Part shown: positions 6,899 to 38,452 of the stretch, piece after piece
Layout: the number at the start of each line of letters is the position of its first letter
How positions within the stretch are numbered: the first letter of the stretch is position 1
Assembly (NCBI RefSeq): GCF_023657595.1
Contig: NZ_CP098323.1
Span: 2,442,001-2,506,000 of the forward strand
From: Cytobacillus firmus
GTDB taxonomy: Bacteria > Bacillota > Bacilli > Bacillales > Cytobacillaceae
DNA length: 64,000 nucleotides
Direction: 5' to 3'
Notes under the pieces: model-generated
The model's database searches: none
The model's input: the letters and a program-made list of their open reading frames with translations, nothing else
What the model was told of the DNA's origin: nothing
Translations under genes and position numbers: made by a program

Positions 6899-8407
6899 TT
6901 AGGCCTTTAAATTGATTGCTGATAAATCTTCCTCCAGCACTTTGCTTTTTGAAACAGCTGGAGCTAAGAGGGTTCCTGCAATACAAATTAAAAAGTTCAG
7001 CCCCAGTCCCAGAACACCGCCATGAATTCCATAGATGGTTTTGTAGCCTGTCCATGTAAGCAATCCGGCTAATATGGCTCCTGAAAGCATCCCCCAGAAG
7101 ACAGCCTTTCCTGATAAGCGCTTCCAATATAAGCCCAATACAAAAGCAGGGAAAACCTGAACCAGCAATTCGAATTTCAATACAAAAATTTCATAAAGGG
7201 TTCCCGGAGGATTCCAGGCAATCCACAGAAGAAAGATGATGGCGATAATTCCGCATACTTTCCCAACCATAACCTTCTTGTGTTCAGATGCCTGAGGATT
7301 GATGAATTTCCCATATACATCATTTGAGAGCATCGATGAAAAACTGAGCAGAACTGAATCCGCTGTTGAGATAATGGCGGCCACAATGCCCCCAAAGAAA
7401 ATGATCATAACCCAGTAGTAAAATGGATTAATGGCAGCTATTTCATTGGCCATCAAACCTACGAGCTGCTCAGAACCTGTCTTATCAAGGCCAGGAAAAA
7501 GCATGATTCCAATGATGCCCACCATAAATACAAGTCCTGTTGTAATAGGCGGCATCCATGCCATGCGGGCAAATGATTTTTTCAGTGTTTTTTCGCTTTG
7601 CGCAGAATATATTCTCTGAACAGCATGTGGATAAATACTTGCTCCAAGTCCAACCAGCAGGAGCATACTTAACCAATTAATATTCACTTCCATTGGAGGA
7701 ACTGCCGTTTTTGCAGGCTCAATCTCTGCTACATATCTTGTAACATCAGAGAAATTTCCTCCGACGAGGTACAAGCCTCCAATGAGAAAGACGATGATGC
7801 CGATCATAAGAACAATGCCCTGCATAACATCTGTGAATGCAACCGCCTTCATTCCGCCCATCCATTCATAGGCAAGCATGACAGCAACGAAGACAATAAC
7901 AGCAATCTGGTATGGAATGGTTCCGCCCGTCATTCCGGATACAGCCTGTCCGATTGCTACCAGCTGTTCTAATAGATAGTTTCCAAGCCCCCAAAGCATG
8001 AGAAAGATACTAAGCAATGTGACTGCCTTTGATTTAAAGCGGTGATCGATCCAGTCAGTAGGTGTTACAAAATTTCTTTTCTTTGCAATGACATAAAGCC
8101 TTGGTGCAAACAGTAAATAGATTCCGATAATAATTGTCATAAACGAGATGGACTGTATCCATGAGAAGCCTGTCCGATAGGCTGTCGGTGCATAGCCGAC
8201 AATAGTATTTCCGCTATATTGCGTCGCATATAGGGTGAAAAAGAGTGCAATGAAACCGAGGTTTCTTCCGGCAAGATAATATCCTGAAAGACTGTGATGA
8301 AGGTTCTTATCGCCTCTGCCGGACAGGTAACCAATTAGCAGCATGATTATGGCAAATGCTGATAAGATAATGATCCCATCTGTGCCTGCAAATGCTAAAT
8401 CATTCAT
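6899..8407 (-). CDS. Sodium:solute symporter (SSS family)
   Basis: A 502-residue Na+-coupled symporter with about 13 membrane segments. Family signatures include LAGRNLGFIALFFTLYATQYSGNTIVGYAPTAY near the N-terminus, EWMGGMKAVAFTDVMQG in the middle, and ISTADSVLLSFSSMLSNDVY in the second half. It most resembles the pantothenate/proline/monocarboxylate branch. It overlaps the preceding small membrane gene by 4 bases (ATGA), so the two are translationally coupled. In context it is the likely uptake system for the organic acid degraded by the operon. Confidence 0.92.
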   Translation of the reverse strand: MNDLAFAGTDGIIILSAFAIIMLLIGYLSGRGDKNLHHSLSGYYLAGRNLGFIALFFTLYATQYSGNTIVGYAPTAYRTGFSWIQSISFMTIIIGIYLLFAPRLYVIAKKRNFVTPTDWIDHRFKSKAVTLLSIFLMLWGLGNYLLEQLVAIGQAVSGMTGGTIPYQIAVIVFVAVMLAYEWMGGMKAVAFTDVMQGIVLMIGIIVFLIGGLYLVGGNFSDVTRYVAEIEPAKTAVPPMEVNINWLSMLLLVGLGASIYPHAVQRIYSAQSEKTLKKSFARMAWMPPITTGLVFMVGIIGIMLFPGLDKTGSEQLVGLMANEIAAINPFYYWVMIIFFGGIVAAIISTADSVLLSFSSMLSNDVYGKFINPQASEHKKVMVGKVCGIIAIIFLLWIAWNPPGTLYEIFVLKFELLVQVFPAFVLGLYWKRLSGKAVFWGMLSGAILAGLLTWTGYKTIYGIHGGVLGLGLNFLICIAGTLLAPAVSKSKVLEEDLSAINLKA

Positions 8408-8679: not shown

Positions 8680-9294
8680 TTAATTAATTTCGACGCCCAG
8701 CTTGTAGTAAATCTTATGTCCTGATTCAAAGGAGTCTATATTTTGAGATGATTGAAGGGTCGCTCCAATTTCATCCAATCCTTGTAACAGCTGATCTTTT
8801 CGATAGGAGCCTATCTCGAATTCTGACATGTATCCAAAAGAATCTTCTATTCTCTGACTCTCTAAATCGACTTTAATCTGATAGCCAGGTATTTCTCTTG
8901 TTTTCCGAAAAAGAAATTCTATATCCTGATCGGGCAAAACGACTGGCAGGATCCCATTTTTGAAACAATTATTATAGAAAATATCTGCGAATGATGGAGC
9001 CAGGATTACTTTTATTCCATATTCTGCAATCGCCCATGGTGCATGCTCCCTGGATGAGCCACATCCAAAATTTTTGCGGGTCAGCAGTATAGGCGCATTT
9101 CGGTATGGTTCGCGATTTAGAATGAAATCCGGCTTTTCCCTGTCATTTCCATATCGCCATTCATAGAAAAGAAATTTGCCAAACCCTGTTCTTTCAATAC
9201 TTTTAAGAAATTGCTTCGGGATAATGGCATCTGTGTCAACATTTGCCGCATCAAGCGGAGCAACGATGCCTGTAAATCTCGTAAAAGATTTCAT
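8680..9294 (-). CDS. leuD: 3-isopropylmalate dehydratase-type small subunit
   Basis: Swivel-domain subunit of a LeuCD-type hydro-lyase, 204 residues, normal length. The family block [40 protein letters not shown] is intact. It starts inside the last codon of leuC (ATGA overlap). leuA and leuB are not nearby and the operon otherwise encodes transporters and CoA-thioester enzymes. So this pair may hydrate an unsaturated C5 diacid (citraconate type) rather than serve leucine synthesis. It could equally be the cell's only LeuCD, so the specificity is open. Confidence 0.9.
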
Positions 9295-10718
9295 TTTAAA
9301 CTGACCTCCTTTCTTTCCTTAACTGGCCACTCCCTCACATCTGTAAACCGCCCGGCAATCGCTGCAGCCGCTGCCATTACCGGGCTGACCAAATGGGTCC
9401 TGGCATTCCTTCCCTGCCTGCCTTCAAAGTTCCGGTTTGAGGTGGATGCACAGCGCTCTTCCGGAAGAACCAAATCCTCATTCATTCCCAGGCACATGCT
9501 GCAGCCCGCTTCTCTCCATTGGAAACCGGCCTCTATAAAAATCTGGTCAAGCCCTTCAGCCTCTGCCTGAATTTTTACTAGCTGTGAACCGGGAACAACC
9601 AAGGCTTCCACATGTTCCGCAACTTTAAAACCGTTTGCGATTTTAGCAGCCTTGCGGAGATCTTCAATTCGGCTGTTTGTACAGGAGCCGATAAAGACTT
9701 TGTCGATCCCTATTTCGGTGATCGGTGTTCCCGGTTCCAGACCCATATACTGCAGTGCCTTTTTTGCAGGCCGCACATGATCTTCAGACATATCTTCAAG
9801 TTTCGGGATAGTTTCTGTAATGCCGGCAACCTGGCCTGGATTCGTCCCCCAGGTAACCTGCGGGATGACTTCAGCAGCATTAAAATCAGCGGTCAAATCA
9901 AATTTTGCATCCTCATCTGTATAATATTGCTTCCACTCTTCAAGGGCTTCTTCCCATAGATTTCCTTCAGGAACCTCCTGTTTTCCTTTCAAGAACGCAA
10001 AGGTTTTGCTGTCAGGCTCAATTAGTCCAGCCCTCGCTCCCATTTCGATGCTCATATTACAGACGGTCATGCGCTCTTCCATCGTTAATTTCCGGATGGC
10101 TTCGCCGCGATATTCAACCACATATCCTGTTGCAAAATCATGTCCATATTTTCCAATGATTGAAAGAATCAGATCCTTGGCAGTAGTCCCCTGCGGCAAT
10201 TGTCCATGTATATTTATTGCCAAAGTTTTTGATTTAAATTGCTTTAATGTCTGGGTGGCAAGAACATGTTCAACTTCACTTGTACCGATGCCAAAGGCAA
10301 GTGCTCCGAACGCACCATGTGTAGAGGTATGACTGTCGCCGCATACAATCGTCATCCCTGGCTGGGTTAATCCCAGTTCAGGAGCAATGACGTGTACGAT
10401 TCCCTGATTACTGCTGTTCAAGTCAAAAAGCTGTATGCCGAAATCACTGCAGTTTTTTTCTAATGCATCGACTTGCTTCTTTGCGATTTCATCCCTGAAT
10501 GGCAATGTGCGATCTGTTGTTGGGATGCTGTGGTCCATGGTCGCAACCGTCAGCTCAGGCTTTCTTACTCTGCGATTATTGATTCTTAAGCCTTCAAAAG
10601 CCTGCGGGGATGTGACTTCATGAATTAAATGAAGATCAATGTACAAAAGGGAAGGCTGGTTCTGCTGCTCAAGCACTGCATGTTTATCCCAAATTTTTTC
10701 ATATAGAGTCCGCCCCAT
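9291..10718 (-). CDS. leuC: 3-isopropylmalate dehydratase-type large subunit
   Basis: Large subunit of an aconitase-superfamily hydro-lyase, 475 residues, close to the family norm. The [4Fe-4S] ligands are present at Cys346 (GSCTNSR) and Cys406/Cys409 (GCSMC). [12 protein letters not shown] is at 127-138 and the terminal [10 protein letters not shown] block is intact, so it should be active. It sits 12 bases after the CoA-transferase and overlaps leuD. Biosynthetic LeuC sequences look the same at this level. The reason to suspect a catabolic role is only the operon context. Confidence 0.92.
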
Positions 10719-10730
10719 GTTGAAGCCCTC

Positions 10731-11933
10731 CTAAATGATATTTTTTTTCTTCAATTCTTCTAATCTATCTTCATCGAAACCAAGGAGGCCTGAGTAGATA
10801 TCATTGTTATGCTTGCCCATCGCTTCAGGGCCGGCATGCTTCACTTCCCCTGGTGTCCTGCTTAATTTTGGAACAATGCCAGGCATTGGAAACTCCCCCA
10901 GCTGCGGATGATCAACTTTGATGATCATGTCCCGTTCTTTATAATGGGGATCTTCCAGAATATCTTTAGCTGAATAGATGAGCCCTGAAGGCACTCCTTT
11001 ATCTTCAAGGATTTTTAGCGCTTCTTTAGCCGGGAGAGTCTTAGTCCATTCTTCGATCATGGAGTCAAGAAGCTTCATGTTCTCTCCTCTTGCATGATGT
11101 GTTGAAAATCTTGGGTCCTTCGCCAATTCCGGCTGCTCCATTGCCTCACATAATCTGCTGAACACTCCATCCGCATTGGCGCCGATCACGATATATGTTT
11201 TATCCTTTGTAAAATAAATATTGGATGGCGCAACACCTGGCAGAATATTGCCCATCCTTTCCCTTATGTATCCTGCTAGAAGATAATCCGGAATAATGCT
11301 TTCCATCACAGAGAATACAGATTCATAGAGGGCTGTATCGACTACCTGCCCCTTTCCTGAACGCTCCCTCTCATGTAAAGCAACCAGGCAGCCGATCGTG
11401 GCAAAAAGTGCTGCCAGTGTATCACCAATGGATACACCTATTCGCGATGGCGGCCTGTCAGGGAAACCGGTTACATTTCTTAGCCCCCCCATTGCTTCGC
11501 CGACACTGCCGAAGCCGGCACGATGCTTATACGGCCCAGTCTGTCCATATCCGGAAGTCCGGACCATTATTAATCTGGGGTTTATCTCCGACAATGTTTC
11601 GTAGGAAAGATTCCATTTTTCCATTGTGCCCGGGCGGAAATTCTCAATGACAACATCGGCTTCTTTAACAAGTTCTCTTAAAACCTGCTGCCCTTCTTCT
11701 TCGCGCAGGTTTAATGTGATTGATTTTTTATTTCGCGATTGAATCGGCCACCATAGCCCAACTCCATCCTTTGACTTTCCCCAGTTTCTCATGGGATCTG
11801 ATTTTCCTGGAGGTTCAACCTTGATGATTTCAGCACCAAAGTCCCCAAGAAGACGTCCTGAAAATGGTCCAGCTAATAGTGTGCCAAGCTCAAGAACTCT
11901 TATATCTTGCAGTGGAAGCTGTTTTTCTGACAT
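10731..11933 (-). CDS. Class III CoA-transferase (CaiB/BaiF family)
   Basis: A 400-residue family III CoA-transferase, first gene of the operon. N-terminal block LGTLLAGPFSGRLLGDFGAEIIKVEPP with the conserved AGP, then NKKSITLNL and VRTSGYGQTGPYKHRAGFGSVGEAMGG. The expected catalytic aspartate lies in GDTLAAL (SIGDTLAALFA). Relatives move CoA from succinyl-CoA or another thioester to a carboxylic acid, and succinyl-CoA:(R)-citramalate CoA-transferase belongs here. The operon partner HMG-CoA lyase-like protein would cleave such a product. An AGGAGGG site precedes the ATG. Its promoter is built from two GntR-type palindromes. Confidence 0.88.
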   Translation of the reverse strand: MSEKQLPLQDIRVLELGTLLAGPFSGRLLGDFGAEIIKVEPPGKSDPMRNWGKSKDGVGLWWPIQSRNKKSITLNLREEEGQQVLRELVKEADVVIENFRPGTMEKWNLSYETLSEINPRLIMVRTSGYGQTGPYKHRAGFGSVGEAMGGLRNVTGFPDRPPSRIGVSIGDTLAALFATIGCLVALHERERSGKGQVVDTALYESVFSVMESIIPDYLLAGYIRERMGNILPGVAPSNIYFTKDKTYIVIGANADGVFSRLCEAMEQPELAKDPRFSTHHARGENMKLLDSMIEEWTKTLPAKEALKILEDKGVPSGLIYSAKDILEDPHYKERDMIIKVDHPQLGEFPMPGIVPKLSRTPGEVKHAGPEAMGKHNNDIYSGLLGFDEDRLEELKKKNII

Positions 11934-11988: not shown

Positions 11989-12018
11989 TTGTATACAAAT
12001 TTAATTGTTTGTATACAA
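11989..12018 (-). promoter_or_regulatory. CoA-transferase promoter made of two operators
   Basis: Two identical palindromes TTGTATACAA lie at 11989-11998 and 12009-12018, 20 bp centre to centre. Read on the minus strand, TTGTAT of the upstream copy and TATACA of the downstream copy are 17 bases apart, as -35 and -10 elements. A repressor bound to both sites would cover the whole promoter. The divergent FadR-type GntR protein is the obvious candidate. Confidence 0.7.
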
Positions 12019-12102
12019 TAAGTCAATAACAATTTTAAAATTTTCTGATATCTCTTTAAAAACATTGATTTGATTAAGTTTCAGTATAAATTTTCAGAAT
12101 AT

Positions 12103-12133
12103 TTGTTGTAATAATTTTCCCGTTTGTATACAA
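12103..12133 (+). promoter_or_regulatory. gntR promoter with third operator
   Basis: TTGTTG and TATACA are separated by 18 bases. The -10 lies inside a third exact TTGTATACAA palindrome at 12124-12133, 18 bases before the gntR start. This suggests autoregulation together with control of the divergent operon. Confidence 0.65.
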
Positions 12134-12151
12134 TTAAGTTGAGGTGTTGTT

Positions 12152-12823
12152 ATGGATGCATACGAATATATAAAAGATGCCATTATTGAAGGGAAATTTG
12201 TCCCTGGTATGCGGCTCGCTGAAGAGTCATTGGCTAAAAAGATGAATATTAGCCGCACTCCTATTAGAGAAGCAATTAGGCAGCTTGAAGCAGAAGGACT
12301 AGTTATTCCTTTAAAGCGCGGGGTCAGCGTAAGACATTTTACAAAAGATGATATTCGGCAAATTTATGACCTGCGCACCCTGCTCGAAGGATACGCTGCC
12401 AGCCAGGCGGCGATACATCGGACAGAAAGTGACCTTCTTAAAATGGAAAGTGCCAATATTTTATATGAAGAAGCAATTAGCCGGCATGTGGAATCCAATA
12501 TGGAAAGCCTGAAAGATATTGTTCAGGTAAACCAGAAATTCCATGAAGCTATTGTCGCAGCTTCCAAAAATGAGCATATTCATTTCCACATTTCCAAGGT
12601 TGTCGTCGTTCCAATTGTGTTCCGGTCCTTCTATTGGTATAACAGCTTTCAGCTAAAGCAATCACTTGAGGTACATAAAACCATCCTGGAAGCGATCAAA
12701 AATCGGGAGCCTGAACGTGCCCGCATTGCGATGCACGAACATATTTACCAGGGCCGTGATCATGTTTTGAAGCATCTGGAGCAAATCAAAAACATTCATC
12801 TGCTGAAGGAGGAAGGAAAATGA
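12152..12823 (+). CDS. GntR-family regulator, FadR/FCD subfamily
   Basis: A 223-residue transcription factor. The winged-helix DNA-binding domain covers residues 1-70, with the typical SRTPIREAIRQLEAEGLV. A helical FCD ligand domain follows (IRQIYDLRTLLEGYAA, then HEAIVAASKNEHIHFH and HEHIYQGRDHVLKHL) with histidines placed for metal or acid binding. FCD regulators usually sense organic acids. It overlaps the lyase gene by 4 bases, and three TTGTATACAA palindromes flank the divergent promoters. It most likely represses both units until the acid substrate is present. Confidence 0.9.
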   Translation: MDAYEYIKDAIIEGKFVPGMRLAEESLAKKMNISRTPIREAIRQLEAEGLVIPLKRGVSVRHFTKDDIRQIYDLRTLLEGYAASQAAIHRTESDLLKMESANILYEEAISRHVESNMESLKDIVQVNQKFHEAIVAASKNEHIHFHISKVVVVPIVFRSFYWYNSFQLKQSLEVHKTILEAIKNREPERARIAMHEHIYQGRDHVLKHLEQIKNIHLLKEEGK

Positions 12824-13704
12824 TTGAAATTTGTGAAGTTGGCCCCCGGGATGGGTTACAGAACGAGTGCAAAATGGTCTCAACGGAATCCAAAGTTGAA
12901 CTGATTACAAGATTACTTGATTCCGGCATCCGCAATATAGAAGCCGTCTCTTTTGTCAATCCGAAGGTTGTTCCTCAGATGGCCGATGCAGAAGAAGTTC
13001 TGAAATCACTGCCTAAAAGAAATGGGGTCCGCTATGGCGGCCTGGTTTTAAGCCGGTCAGGGCTTGAACGTGCACTTAAGACCGATGTGGATTTTCTTCA
13101 TGTTGTAACCACGACAAGTGATTCGTTCAATTTACGGAATGCGAAAAGGACTGTTGAGCAGGCTGTTGAAGAACTTAGTCAGGTAATTAAAGACGGTGCC
13201 TCTTCAGGCAAAGGTGTATCTGGAGTATTGGGCACCTCATTTGGATGTCCGTTTGAAGGAGAAGTTCCATTAGAAAACGTGCTGAAAGCGGCTGAAAGAT
13301 TTTTAGAAGCCGGCTGTACTGAAATCACTCTGGCTGATACAACAGGTATGGCCAATCCTGTTCAGGTCCAAAAAGTGGCAGAAACATTCTTTGATACTTT
13401 TGGAATGGATCTTTCGCTTGGACTTCACTTCCATAATACGCGCGGTTTGGGACTGGCTAATGTATTGGCGGGATATCATGCGGGTGTCCGCCGCTTTGAT
13501 TCATCCATCGCCGGATTAGGCGGATGCCCATTCGCACCAAAAGCAGTCGGGAATGTTTGTACAGAAGATATGATCAATATGTTCCACGGTATGGGTGCGG
13601 ATACTGGGACAGATCTTCCTGTTGTACTGGAAACAGCCAAGTGGATGGAAACAGTGATGGAACGGCCGCTGGATGGGATGTTAATGAAAGCAGGAATAGC
13701 TTAA
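12820..13704 (+). CDS. HMG-CoA lyase-family aldolase
   Basis: A 294-residue DRE-TIM metallolyase. Signatures: GPRDGLQNE at residues 7-15, LADTTGMANP near 170, LHFHNTRGLGLANVLAGYHAG near 205, and the active-site loop GGCPFAPKAVGN near 240 with the catalytic Cys. Classical members split 3-hydroxy-3-methylglutaryl-CoA into acetyl-CoA and acetoacetate. Close relatives split (R)-citramalyl-CoA into acetyl-CoA and pyruvate. No leucine or isovalerate degradation genes (ivd, mcc, auh) are nearby, and the partner is a class III CoA-transferase. I therefore favour a citramalyl-CoA-type lyase, but HMG-CoA lyase remains possible. Confidence 0.88.
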   Translation: MIEICEVGPRDGLQNECKMVSTESKVELITRLLDSGIRNIEAVSFVNPKVVPQMADAEEVLKSLPKRNGVRYGGLVLSRSGLERALKTDVDFLHVVTTTSDSFNLRNAKRTVEQAVEELSQVIKDGASSGKGVSGVLGTSFGCPFEGEVPLENVLKAAERFLEAGCTEITLADTTGMANPVQVQKVAETFFDTFGMDLSLGLHFHNTRGLGLANVLAGYHAGVRRFDSSIAGLGGCPFAPKAVGNVCTEDMINMFHGMGADTGTDLPVVLETAKWMETVMERPLDGMLMKAGIA

Positions 13705-37630: not shown

Positions 37631-38452
37631 CTATGAATATTTGAAATTTGGTTTCCGTTTTTCCAGGAAAGAATGGACACCTTCTTTATAATCGTCTGAG
37701 AGGAAGGATTCGATGATAAGCTTTGATGCTTCGGGTGAATCCTCCTCGGCCCCTGACAGTACTTCATTTATAATTTTCTTGGATCCTCTGACTGAGGCTT
37801 GAGCATTCTTGCAAATTAACTCAGCATACGCCAGAGTTTCTTCTTTAATGGAAACCGCCGGGATAATCCGGTCAATGAGACCGATCCGAAAAGCTTCTTC
37901 AGTATCCAGCAATCGTCCGGTAAAAAGAATATCCTTTGCTTTAGATGGTCCTAATAGGTCTACAACATTTTTGGTTCCTGGTGTATTGTATACAAGTCCG
38001 AGCTTCGCAGGGGTAATTCCAAACTTCCCATTCTCATCTGAGAATCTGAAATCACAGGCAACAGCAATTTCGCAGCCTCCACCTACACAAAATCCTTGAA
38101 TCATGGCAATAGTTGGCTTGGAGGCATTCATTATGGCTTTTTCTGCTACCATTGTAGCTTCGTTGTATTTTTCGGCACCTTCAGCGGTATATCTAAGCGT
38201 CTTAAATTCACTGATATCTGCTCCTGCAGAAAAGGCAACTGATCCTTCCCCTTTAAAGATGATCACTTTTATTTTGGAGTCGAGTTCACATTCTTCTATA
38301 AGTTCAGGAATTTTCGTCCAAATATCATAGCTTAGGGCATTCCGTTTTTCCGGACGGTTAAAGCAAATGTATGCGATTTCACCTGCTCTTTCCAAAAAAA
38401 CCGGATCGCGGCAAGTTTTTTCATCATTTATTGCTTCAAGATTTTTAGACAT
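37631..38452 (-). CDS. Crotonase-family (enoyl-CoA hydratase/isomerase) protein
   Basis: A 273-residue crotonase. The oxyanion-hole segments SAGADISEF near 76 and GFCVGGGCEIAVACDFRFSDE near 121-141 are present, keeping the first catalytic glutamate (GGGCE). The segment that carries the second glutamate in hydratases (PEIxLG) reads ITPAKLGLVYNTPGT here, so that residue seems absent and the reaction may be an isomerisation, decarboxylation or other crotonase reaction. It follows the CoA-transferase by 18 bases. Its substrate should be that enzyme's product. Confidence 0.85.
   Translation of the reverse strand: MSKNLEAINDEKTCRDPVFLERAGEIAYICFNRPEKRNALSYDIWTKIPELIEECELDSKIKVIIFKGEGSVAFSAGADISEFKTLRYTAEGAEKYNEATMVAEKAIMNASKPTIAMIQGFCVGGGCEIAVACDFRFSDENGKFGITPAKLGLVYNTPGTKNVVDLLGPSKAKDILFTGRLLDTEEAFRIGLIDRIIPAVSIKEETLAYAELICKNAQASVRGSKKIINEVLSGAEEDSPEASKLIIESFLSDDYKEGVHSFLEKRKPNFKYS

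Follow-up and report, generated by a model that had tools for sequence, protein, structure and literature searches.

How might one regulator control two divergent promoters through a short palindrome that recurs between them without change? This question is raised by the intergenic region between gntR and a CoA-transferase gene of Cytobacillus firmus, located within a 64 kb stretch of DNA that is referred to here as the window. A preliminary description had proposed that the palindromes are operator and promoter element at once. The region was compared with its counterparts in related bacteria, covering the palindromes, their presumed regulator, the two promoters and the distances between them.

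Gene neighbourhood and predicted pathway

The genes on either side of the intergenic region are as follows.

6899 to 8407, minus strand: sodium:solute symporter
8680 to 9294, minus strand: LeuD-like dehydratase small subunit
9291 to 10718, minus strand: LeuC-like dehydratase large subunit, a paralogue
10731 to 11933, minus strand: CaiB/BaiF-type CoA-transferase, first gene of the divergent operon
12152 to 12823, plus strand: gntR, encoding a VanR-like FCD regulator of 223 aa, a presumed repressor
12820 to 13704, plus strand: HMG-CoA-lyase-like gene, overlapping the gntR stop

The CoA-transferase gene is divergent to gntR in 33/33 named loci, the HMG-CoA-lyase-like gene adjoins gntR in 31 of the 33, and the symporter is present in 29. 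The lyase-like gene would form the downstream arm of the gntR transcript, and synteny suggests that the symporter belongs to the divergent operon. The LeuC-like protein is regarded as a paralogue because a second, better-scoring LeuC is encoded elsewhere in the genome. Within the stretches examined, the LeuC and LeuD pair occurs in 17 of the 33 named loci, while the CoA-transferase, gntR and the lyase stay; at one locus (L042), only a LeuC fragment was matched. The LeuC/LeuD hydratase seems to be an optional module of the pathway. The CoA-transferase itself scores under every NCBIfam equivalog cut-off. We infer that the operon serves the catabolism of a branched C5-C6 dicarboxylate of the citramalate, mesaconate or 3-hydroxy-3-methylglutarate type; literature searches for this operon or its pathway showed no such paper among the matches listed.

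Carbon catabolite control of the operon seems likely in some relatives. The cre consensus is TGWAANCGNTNWCA, and cre-like boxes with at most two mismatches were identified in 14 of 21 representative intergenic regions, compared with 4.5 expected from mononucleotide shuffles. Examples lie at -83 (L024), -124 (L030) and -124 (L058) from gntR, and the intergenic region of the window contains a cre-like match only with two mismatches.

Copies and local enrichment of the palindrome

Three sites carry the palindrome between the CoA-transferase gene and gntR.

11989 to 11998: site 1, predicted operator palindrome TTGTATACAA, beginning on the final base of the CoA-transferase -10 and covering the predicted transcription start
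12009 to 12018: site 2, predicted operator palindrome, between the -35 and -10 of the CoA-transferase promoter, in the 17-bp spacer
12124 to 12133: site 3, predicted operator palindrome, holding most of the gntR -10 TACAAT

The palindrome is exact at all three positions, which span 145 bp, as had been claimed; the arithmetic of two copies 20 bp apart, leaving a 17-bp gap from TTGTAT to TATACA, is likewise correct. The window contains four exact copies versus 0.05 expected, and none of 100 dinucleotide shuffles of the window reached four. Over the whole genome (4.98 Mb), eight copies were counted, and the reversed control occurred six times. Enrichment of the word is thus local and does not extend to the genome as a whole; three of the eight copies fall inside these 145 bp. 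The three palindromes are real and far above local chance.

The fourth exact copy in the window (37986 to 37995, L006) lies inside an ORF beside a second CaiB-type CoA-transferase and is probably due to chance. The five genomic copies other than sites 1 to 3 were considered as regulon members and left uncounted: L002, L006 and L007 all fall within ORFs, L001 is upstream of a decarboxylase-like gene, and L008 is at a gnt-like operon.

The adjacent GntR protein

The product of gntR comprises a GntR winged helix (PF00392) and an FCD domain (PF07729), both scoring above cut-off, and is 99% identical to the GntR of C. firmus NBRC 15306. A single-chain structure model (pLDDT 84.4) displays no extra helix after the linker. 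The model has seven helical segments compared with the six expected for VanR; we take two of them, 141-149 and 153-161, to be a single helix with a break. In the fold search, the top ranks went to VanR members: Atu1419 was first by E-value (TM 0.66-0.71), and other members scored higher TM, AlkR reaching 0.80. The sequence search placed PmiR (7XP0/7XP1) first and Atu1419 second. Residues N127, H131, H175 and H197 are invariant in 17 aligned sequences and align with Asn137, His141, His192 and His214 of Atu1419, a putative metal site. Furthermore, the arrangement TTGT-AT-ACAA matches the operator rule of the FadR subfamily, in which GT and AC boxes stand 2-3 nt apart (consensus from PMC4494728).

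Conservation and specificity of the probable operators

The preliminary description had advised looking for the same pattern near homologous operons. Among 103 distinct regions upstream of gntR in related bacteria, 100 contain at least two palindromes with at most one mismatch. The three regions with fewer than two (L034, L125 and L127) were left out, giving 100 usable regions, as was L166, which represents the same place as a locus already included. Within these related regions, conservation is concentrated in the promoter and operator columns, the background being variable. A second copy with at most one mismatch, sought 15-30 bp from site 2, was spaced at 20 bp in 39/100 regions and at 21 bp in 8/100, and never otherwise. 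This spacing of sites 1 and 2 fits dimers on one helix face, in agreement with the earlier suggestion that 20 bp suits side-by-side dimers (47/100 regions).

A cassette pattern, in which TTGAY, site 2 and TA---T keep fixed distances, was used to search 397 genomes of the order. It yielded 28 matches in 27 genomes, with zero matches for reversed-control columns, and 26 of the 28 are at this operon. One of the other two (L078, in a Peribacillus cavernae genome) is upstream of an unlinked MFS transporter and is accompanied, 20 bp away, by a site 1 with one mismatch; in the stretch examined, the same genome has no symporter beside the operon. Such a cassette is what a trans-acting regulator would be expected to leave as its mark, and a transporter swap within one regulon is possible. 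The second non-operon match (L071) precedes an ORF of 149 aa for which Pfam gave no match.

Judged from these sequence patterns, it is very probable that the TTGTATACAA palindromes serve the adjacent GntR (FCD family, VanR-like) as operators, and we consider it highly likely that this protein acts through them on both promoters. A literature search by the letters of the palindrome showed no paper on this operator among the matches listed. The sites might instead belong to another regulator, such as the gluconate-type GntR that this genome also encodes and whose operator shares the 10-bp core: at L008 (genome positions 4901350-4904359), which we take to be probably a gluconate operon, this core stands just after TATAAT before another FCD-like gntR. 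The flanks there differ (ATAC-core-GTAT), and the sites described here accompany this gntR and its operon from genome to genome; no gluconate operon is present at them, their neighbours being the CoA-transferase and the HMG-CoA-lyase-like gene. Control by another regulator is accordingly most improbable. With the same core at L008 and at the present sites, the flanks would have to separate the two regulators.

Predicted architecture of the two promoters

The predicted promoter elements and the ribosome-binding site are listed below.

11998 to 12003, minus strand: predicted -10 TAAATT of the CoA-transferase operon, from promoter scan and conservation
12021 to 12026, minus strand: predicted -35 TTGACT of the CoA-transferase operon, TTGA being 90-100% conserved per position in 21 representatives
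12106 to 12111, plus strand: predicted -35 TTGTAA of gntR, 17 bp upstream of TACAAT
12129 to 12134, plus strand: predicted -10 TACAAT of gntR, mostly inside site 3
12141 to 12146, plus strand: Shine-Dalgarno GAGGTG of gntR, the surrounding positions being 83-94% conserved each

On the gntR side, the proposal that the third palindrome holds the -10 is borne out. Of 43 regions, 38 contain TTGTATACAAT and with it the -10 TACAAT, as do 89/100 of the wider set; TTG precedes TACAAT by 17 bp in 37 of the 38, and in 81/100 of the wider set. In the window, the register is TACAAT with TTGTAA 17 bp upstream. If TACAAT is the -10, the gntR transcript would start at about 12141, with GAGGTG at its extreme 5' end. 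The distance from site 3 to the gntR ATG is 28 bp in 51/100 regions.

On the CoA-transferase side, the preliminary description had taken sites 2 and 1 themselves as the -35 and -10, making operator and promoter one on both sides. The 17-bp gap produced by their spacing is in keeping with that reading, as is the position of the gntR -10 within a palindrome, yet its hexamers, TTGTAT and TATACA, match TTGACA and TATAAT at only 3/6 and 4/6 positions. A promoter scan identified TTGACT (12026-12021), a 17-bp spacer and TAAATT (12003-11998) instead, a 9/12 consensus match. With the spacer fixed at 17 bp, TTGAC-17-TAAATT averaged 8.0/12 compared with 6.2/12 for the earlier hexamers over 42 distinct regions, and scored better in 37 and equally in 5, a comparison in which site 2 was chosen by its best neighbouring -35, a choice that favours TTGAC-17-TAAATT. 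These 42 regions came from 43 examined, L034 being excluded for having no palindrome. The fixed-spacer result is preferable to a comparison over 100 regions, whose outcome of 91:8:1 is biased because the alternative -10 was the best of three spacers and the earlier -10 was held to one position.

Conservation points the same way. In 21 representatives, the six bases before TTGA are 38-71% conserved versus 90-100% for TTGA. Additionally, 53/100 regions have no good site 1, and many of these keep TTGA-17-TA---T; among such regions obtained by protein search, L027, L031, L032, L060, L062, L128 and L134, for example, retain a TTGA or TTGC -35 with TA---T 17 bp on. Speaking against this promoter, Geomicrobium regions show neither site 1 nor a clear -10 at 17 bp, and the CoA-transferase promoter hexamers are weak in several more distant regions. 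Where the sites are 21 bp apart, the -10 tends to move with site 1 and the spacer becomes 18 bp. Sites 2 and 1 are very unlikely to be the -35 and -10 themselves. The anatomy of this promoter is corrected as follows: its operator appears to be interleaved with the promoter and not identical to it, a merger being unsupported here. The merging of operator and promoter holds for gntR, with TACAAT in site 3, and lacks support for the CoA-transferase operon.

Helical phasing of sites 2 and 3

Across relatives, the distance between site 2 and site 3 ranges from 42 to 200 bp and clusters at whole helical turns, with values including 52, 63, 72, 83, 94, 103-106, 113-117, 123-125 and 134-135 bp. In this genome it is 115 bp, corresponding to 11 turns. 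The periodicity was first spotted by eye in the initial regions and tested afterwards. At 10.5 bp, the resultant length R was 0.67 for the 100 regions, and 0.65 (n = 77), 0.59 (n = 54) and 0.40 (n = 31) after thinning at 95, 85 and 75% identity, respectively; the best-fitting period was 10.2-10.4 bp. A control distance, measured from site 2 to where the CoA-transferase gene starts, gave R of 0.20, 0.13, 0.10 and 0.20 in the same series. Unthinned, the control distances had R of 0.20 and 0.19 with kernel P values of 0.024 and 0.029, and this significance was gone after thinning.

Phylogenetic contrasts, which were non-overlapping and comprised differences of at least 5 bp, gave a mean cosine of 0.50 (n = 27, P about 6e-5), consistent with operators on one helix face as a looping repressor would have them, compared with -0.05 (n = 26) and -0.14 (n = 30) for the control distances. 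Restriction to exact palindromes gave 0.45 (n = 20, P = 0.0015), and restriction to GntR identity of at least 60% gave 0.69 (n = 20, P = 2e-5); below 60% identity, six contrasts revealed no phasing (mean cosine -0.50) and no one-face arrangement. Under a harsher block-jitter null, P was 0.0065. Twenty later regions, for which the phase had been fixed beforehand, gave R of 0.77 and a V-test u of 4.8, and held only five independent contrasts (P = 0.007).

An extra palindrome lies between sites 2 and 3 in 11/100 regions and is mostly in phase with both neighbours, at distances such as 62-63 and 42 bp, with exceptions such as 35, 39 and 60 bp. In L117, L149, L151, L156 and L159-L161, it is exactly 42 bp, or four helical turns, from site 3 and off both promoters. 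The phase could be set by the promoters instead of the operators; the extra palindromes, being mostly in phase, favour the operators. Some in-phase distances (42, 62 and 63 bp) leave little DNA for a free loop.

The phasing might also be a remnant of shared ancestry, with separate dimers at each promoter and no contact between site 3 and sites 1 and 2. Such independence is in line with the distant relatives that lack phasing, and the available portion of Suvorova et al. (PMC4494728) is counted in its support. Nevertheless, contrasts of at least 5 bp cluster near multiples of 10.5 bp whereas the two control distances do not, and the extra palindromes are mostly in phase too; we regard independent operators as rather unlikely. 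The helical phasing of sites 2 and 3 suggests one repressor complex bridging both promoters, and given the conserved register between the operators, such a bridging complex is the best single explanation.

Proposed mechanism

We infer GntR binding, repression, an inducer and a loop, arranged as follows. GntR dimers on sites 1 and 2 would flank the -10 of the CoA-transferase promoter, and on the gntR-lyase side the -10 would be covered by a dimer on site 3. As long as inducer is absent, RNA polymerase would be kept from both promoters. The bound dimers would unite, and the simplest form of the resulting complex would be a tetramer that holds the DNA in a loop, of 115 bp or 11 turns here. The inducer, probably a pathway carboxylate, would bind at the metal site, and both pathway arms would be switched together with the regulator.

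We assign a probability of roughly 75% to this explanation as a whole, namely that the palindromes are operators of a VanR-like FCD repressor whose dimers sit on both promoters and are joined in one complex. That sites 2 and 3 take part in a loop or another phase-dependent complex is, on the strength of their spacing, likely on balance. Slightly better than an even bet is the fullest version, in which a VanR-group GntR would hold both divergent branched-dicarboxylate promoters in a phased loop and the register would have been selected across many genera of Bacilli. This version would have the spacer grow or shrink by whole turns, in a GntR family long described as acting by simple dimers, and would amount to an evolutionary footprint of loop-based repression.

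Comparison with known systems

In Bacillus, the gnt (gluconate) operator of GntR is ATACTTGTATACAAGTAT. It shares the identical 10-bp core, and the copy at L008 adjoins TATAAT in a manner resembling site 1 and its -10; it differs in being a single extended palindrome with other flanks and in another operon. LacI and GalR are loop-forming repressors with phased operators. The helical phase dependence of paired operators is common to them and the present locus, although the protein families are unrelated.

A close parallel is offered by Atu1419 from Agrobacterium fabrum, an FCD/GntR repressor in the VanR group (PDB 6Z74, 6ZA0, 6ZA3 and 6ZA7), as far as the accessible part of its report describes it (PMC7797058). 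Its target promoters contain three identical 10-bp palindromes, ATGTATACAT, one overlapping the -10 and another between the -35 and -10, and it shares a divergent autoregulated locus and an Asn-His-His-His metal site. Identity to the window GntR is about 26% over the fold alignment, and Atu1419 governs hydroxycinnamate degradation through a core with other flanks. It is reported there to be a tetramer that loops DNA between palindromes 190 bp apart, whereas the window GntR is known here from sequence and a single-chain model; phasing across many genomes does not feature in that part of the report. In the available portion of their survey of FadR-subfamily divergons, Suvorova et al. (2015; PMC4494728) describe TKGT/ACMA boxes, a 2-nt GT-AC gap as for GntR, HypR, PrpR and UxuR, and double sites located between divergently transcribed operons, the regulator gene being among their genes, all of which resemble the present operators. 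Unlike our analysis, that portion sorts site pairs into constant and length-dependent spacing and gives no helical periodicity.

An uncharacterised GntR is thereby linked to a conserved operon that would act on a branched dicarboxylate, and the locus offers a testable example of phase-dependent action at a distance being indicated by nothing but the comparison of genomes. Should the loop be real, tetrameric looping as reported for Atu1419 may be widespread among VanR-group regulators, and further cases could be sought through helical phasing across genomes. Autoregulated VanR-like repressors with operators overlapping divergent promoters are of a kind already known; what is new is the evolutionary evidence, drawn from operator spacing, for a putative phase-locked co-repression in this operon.
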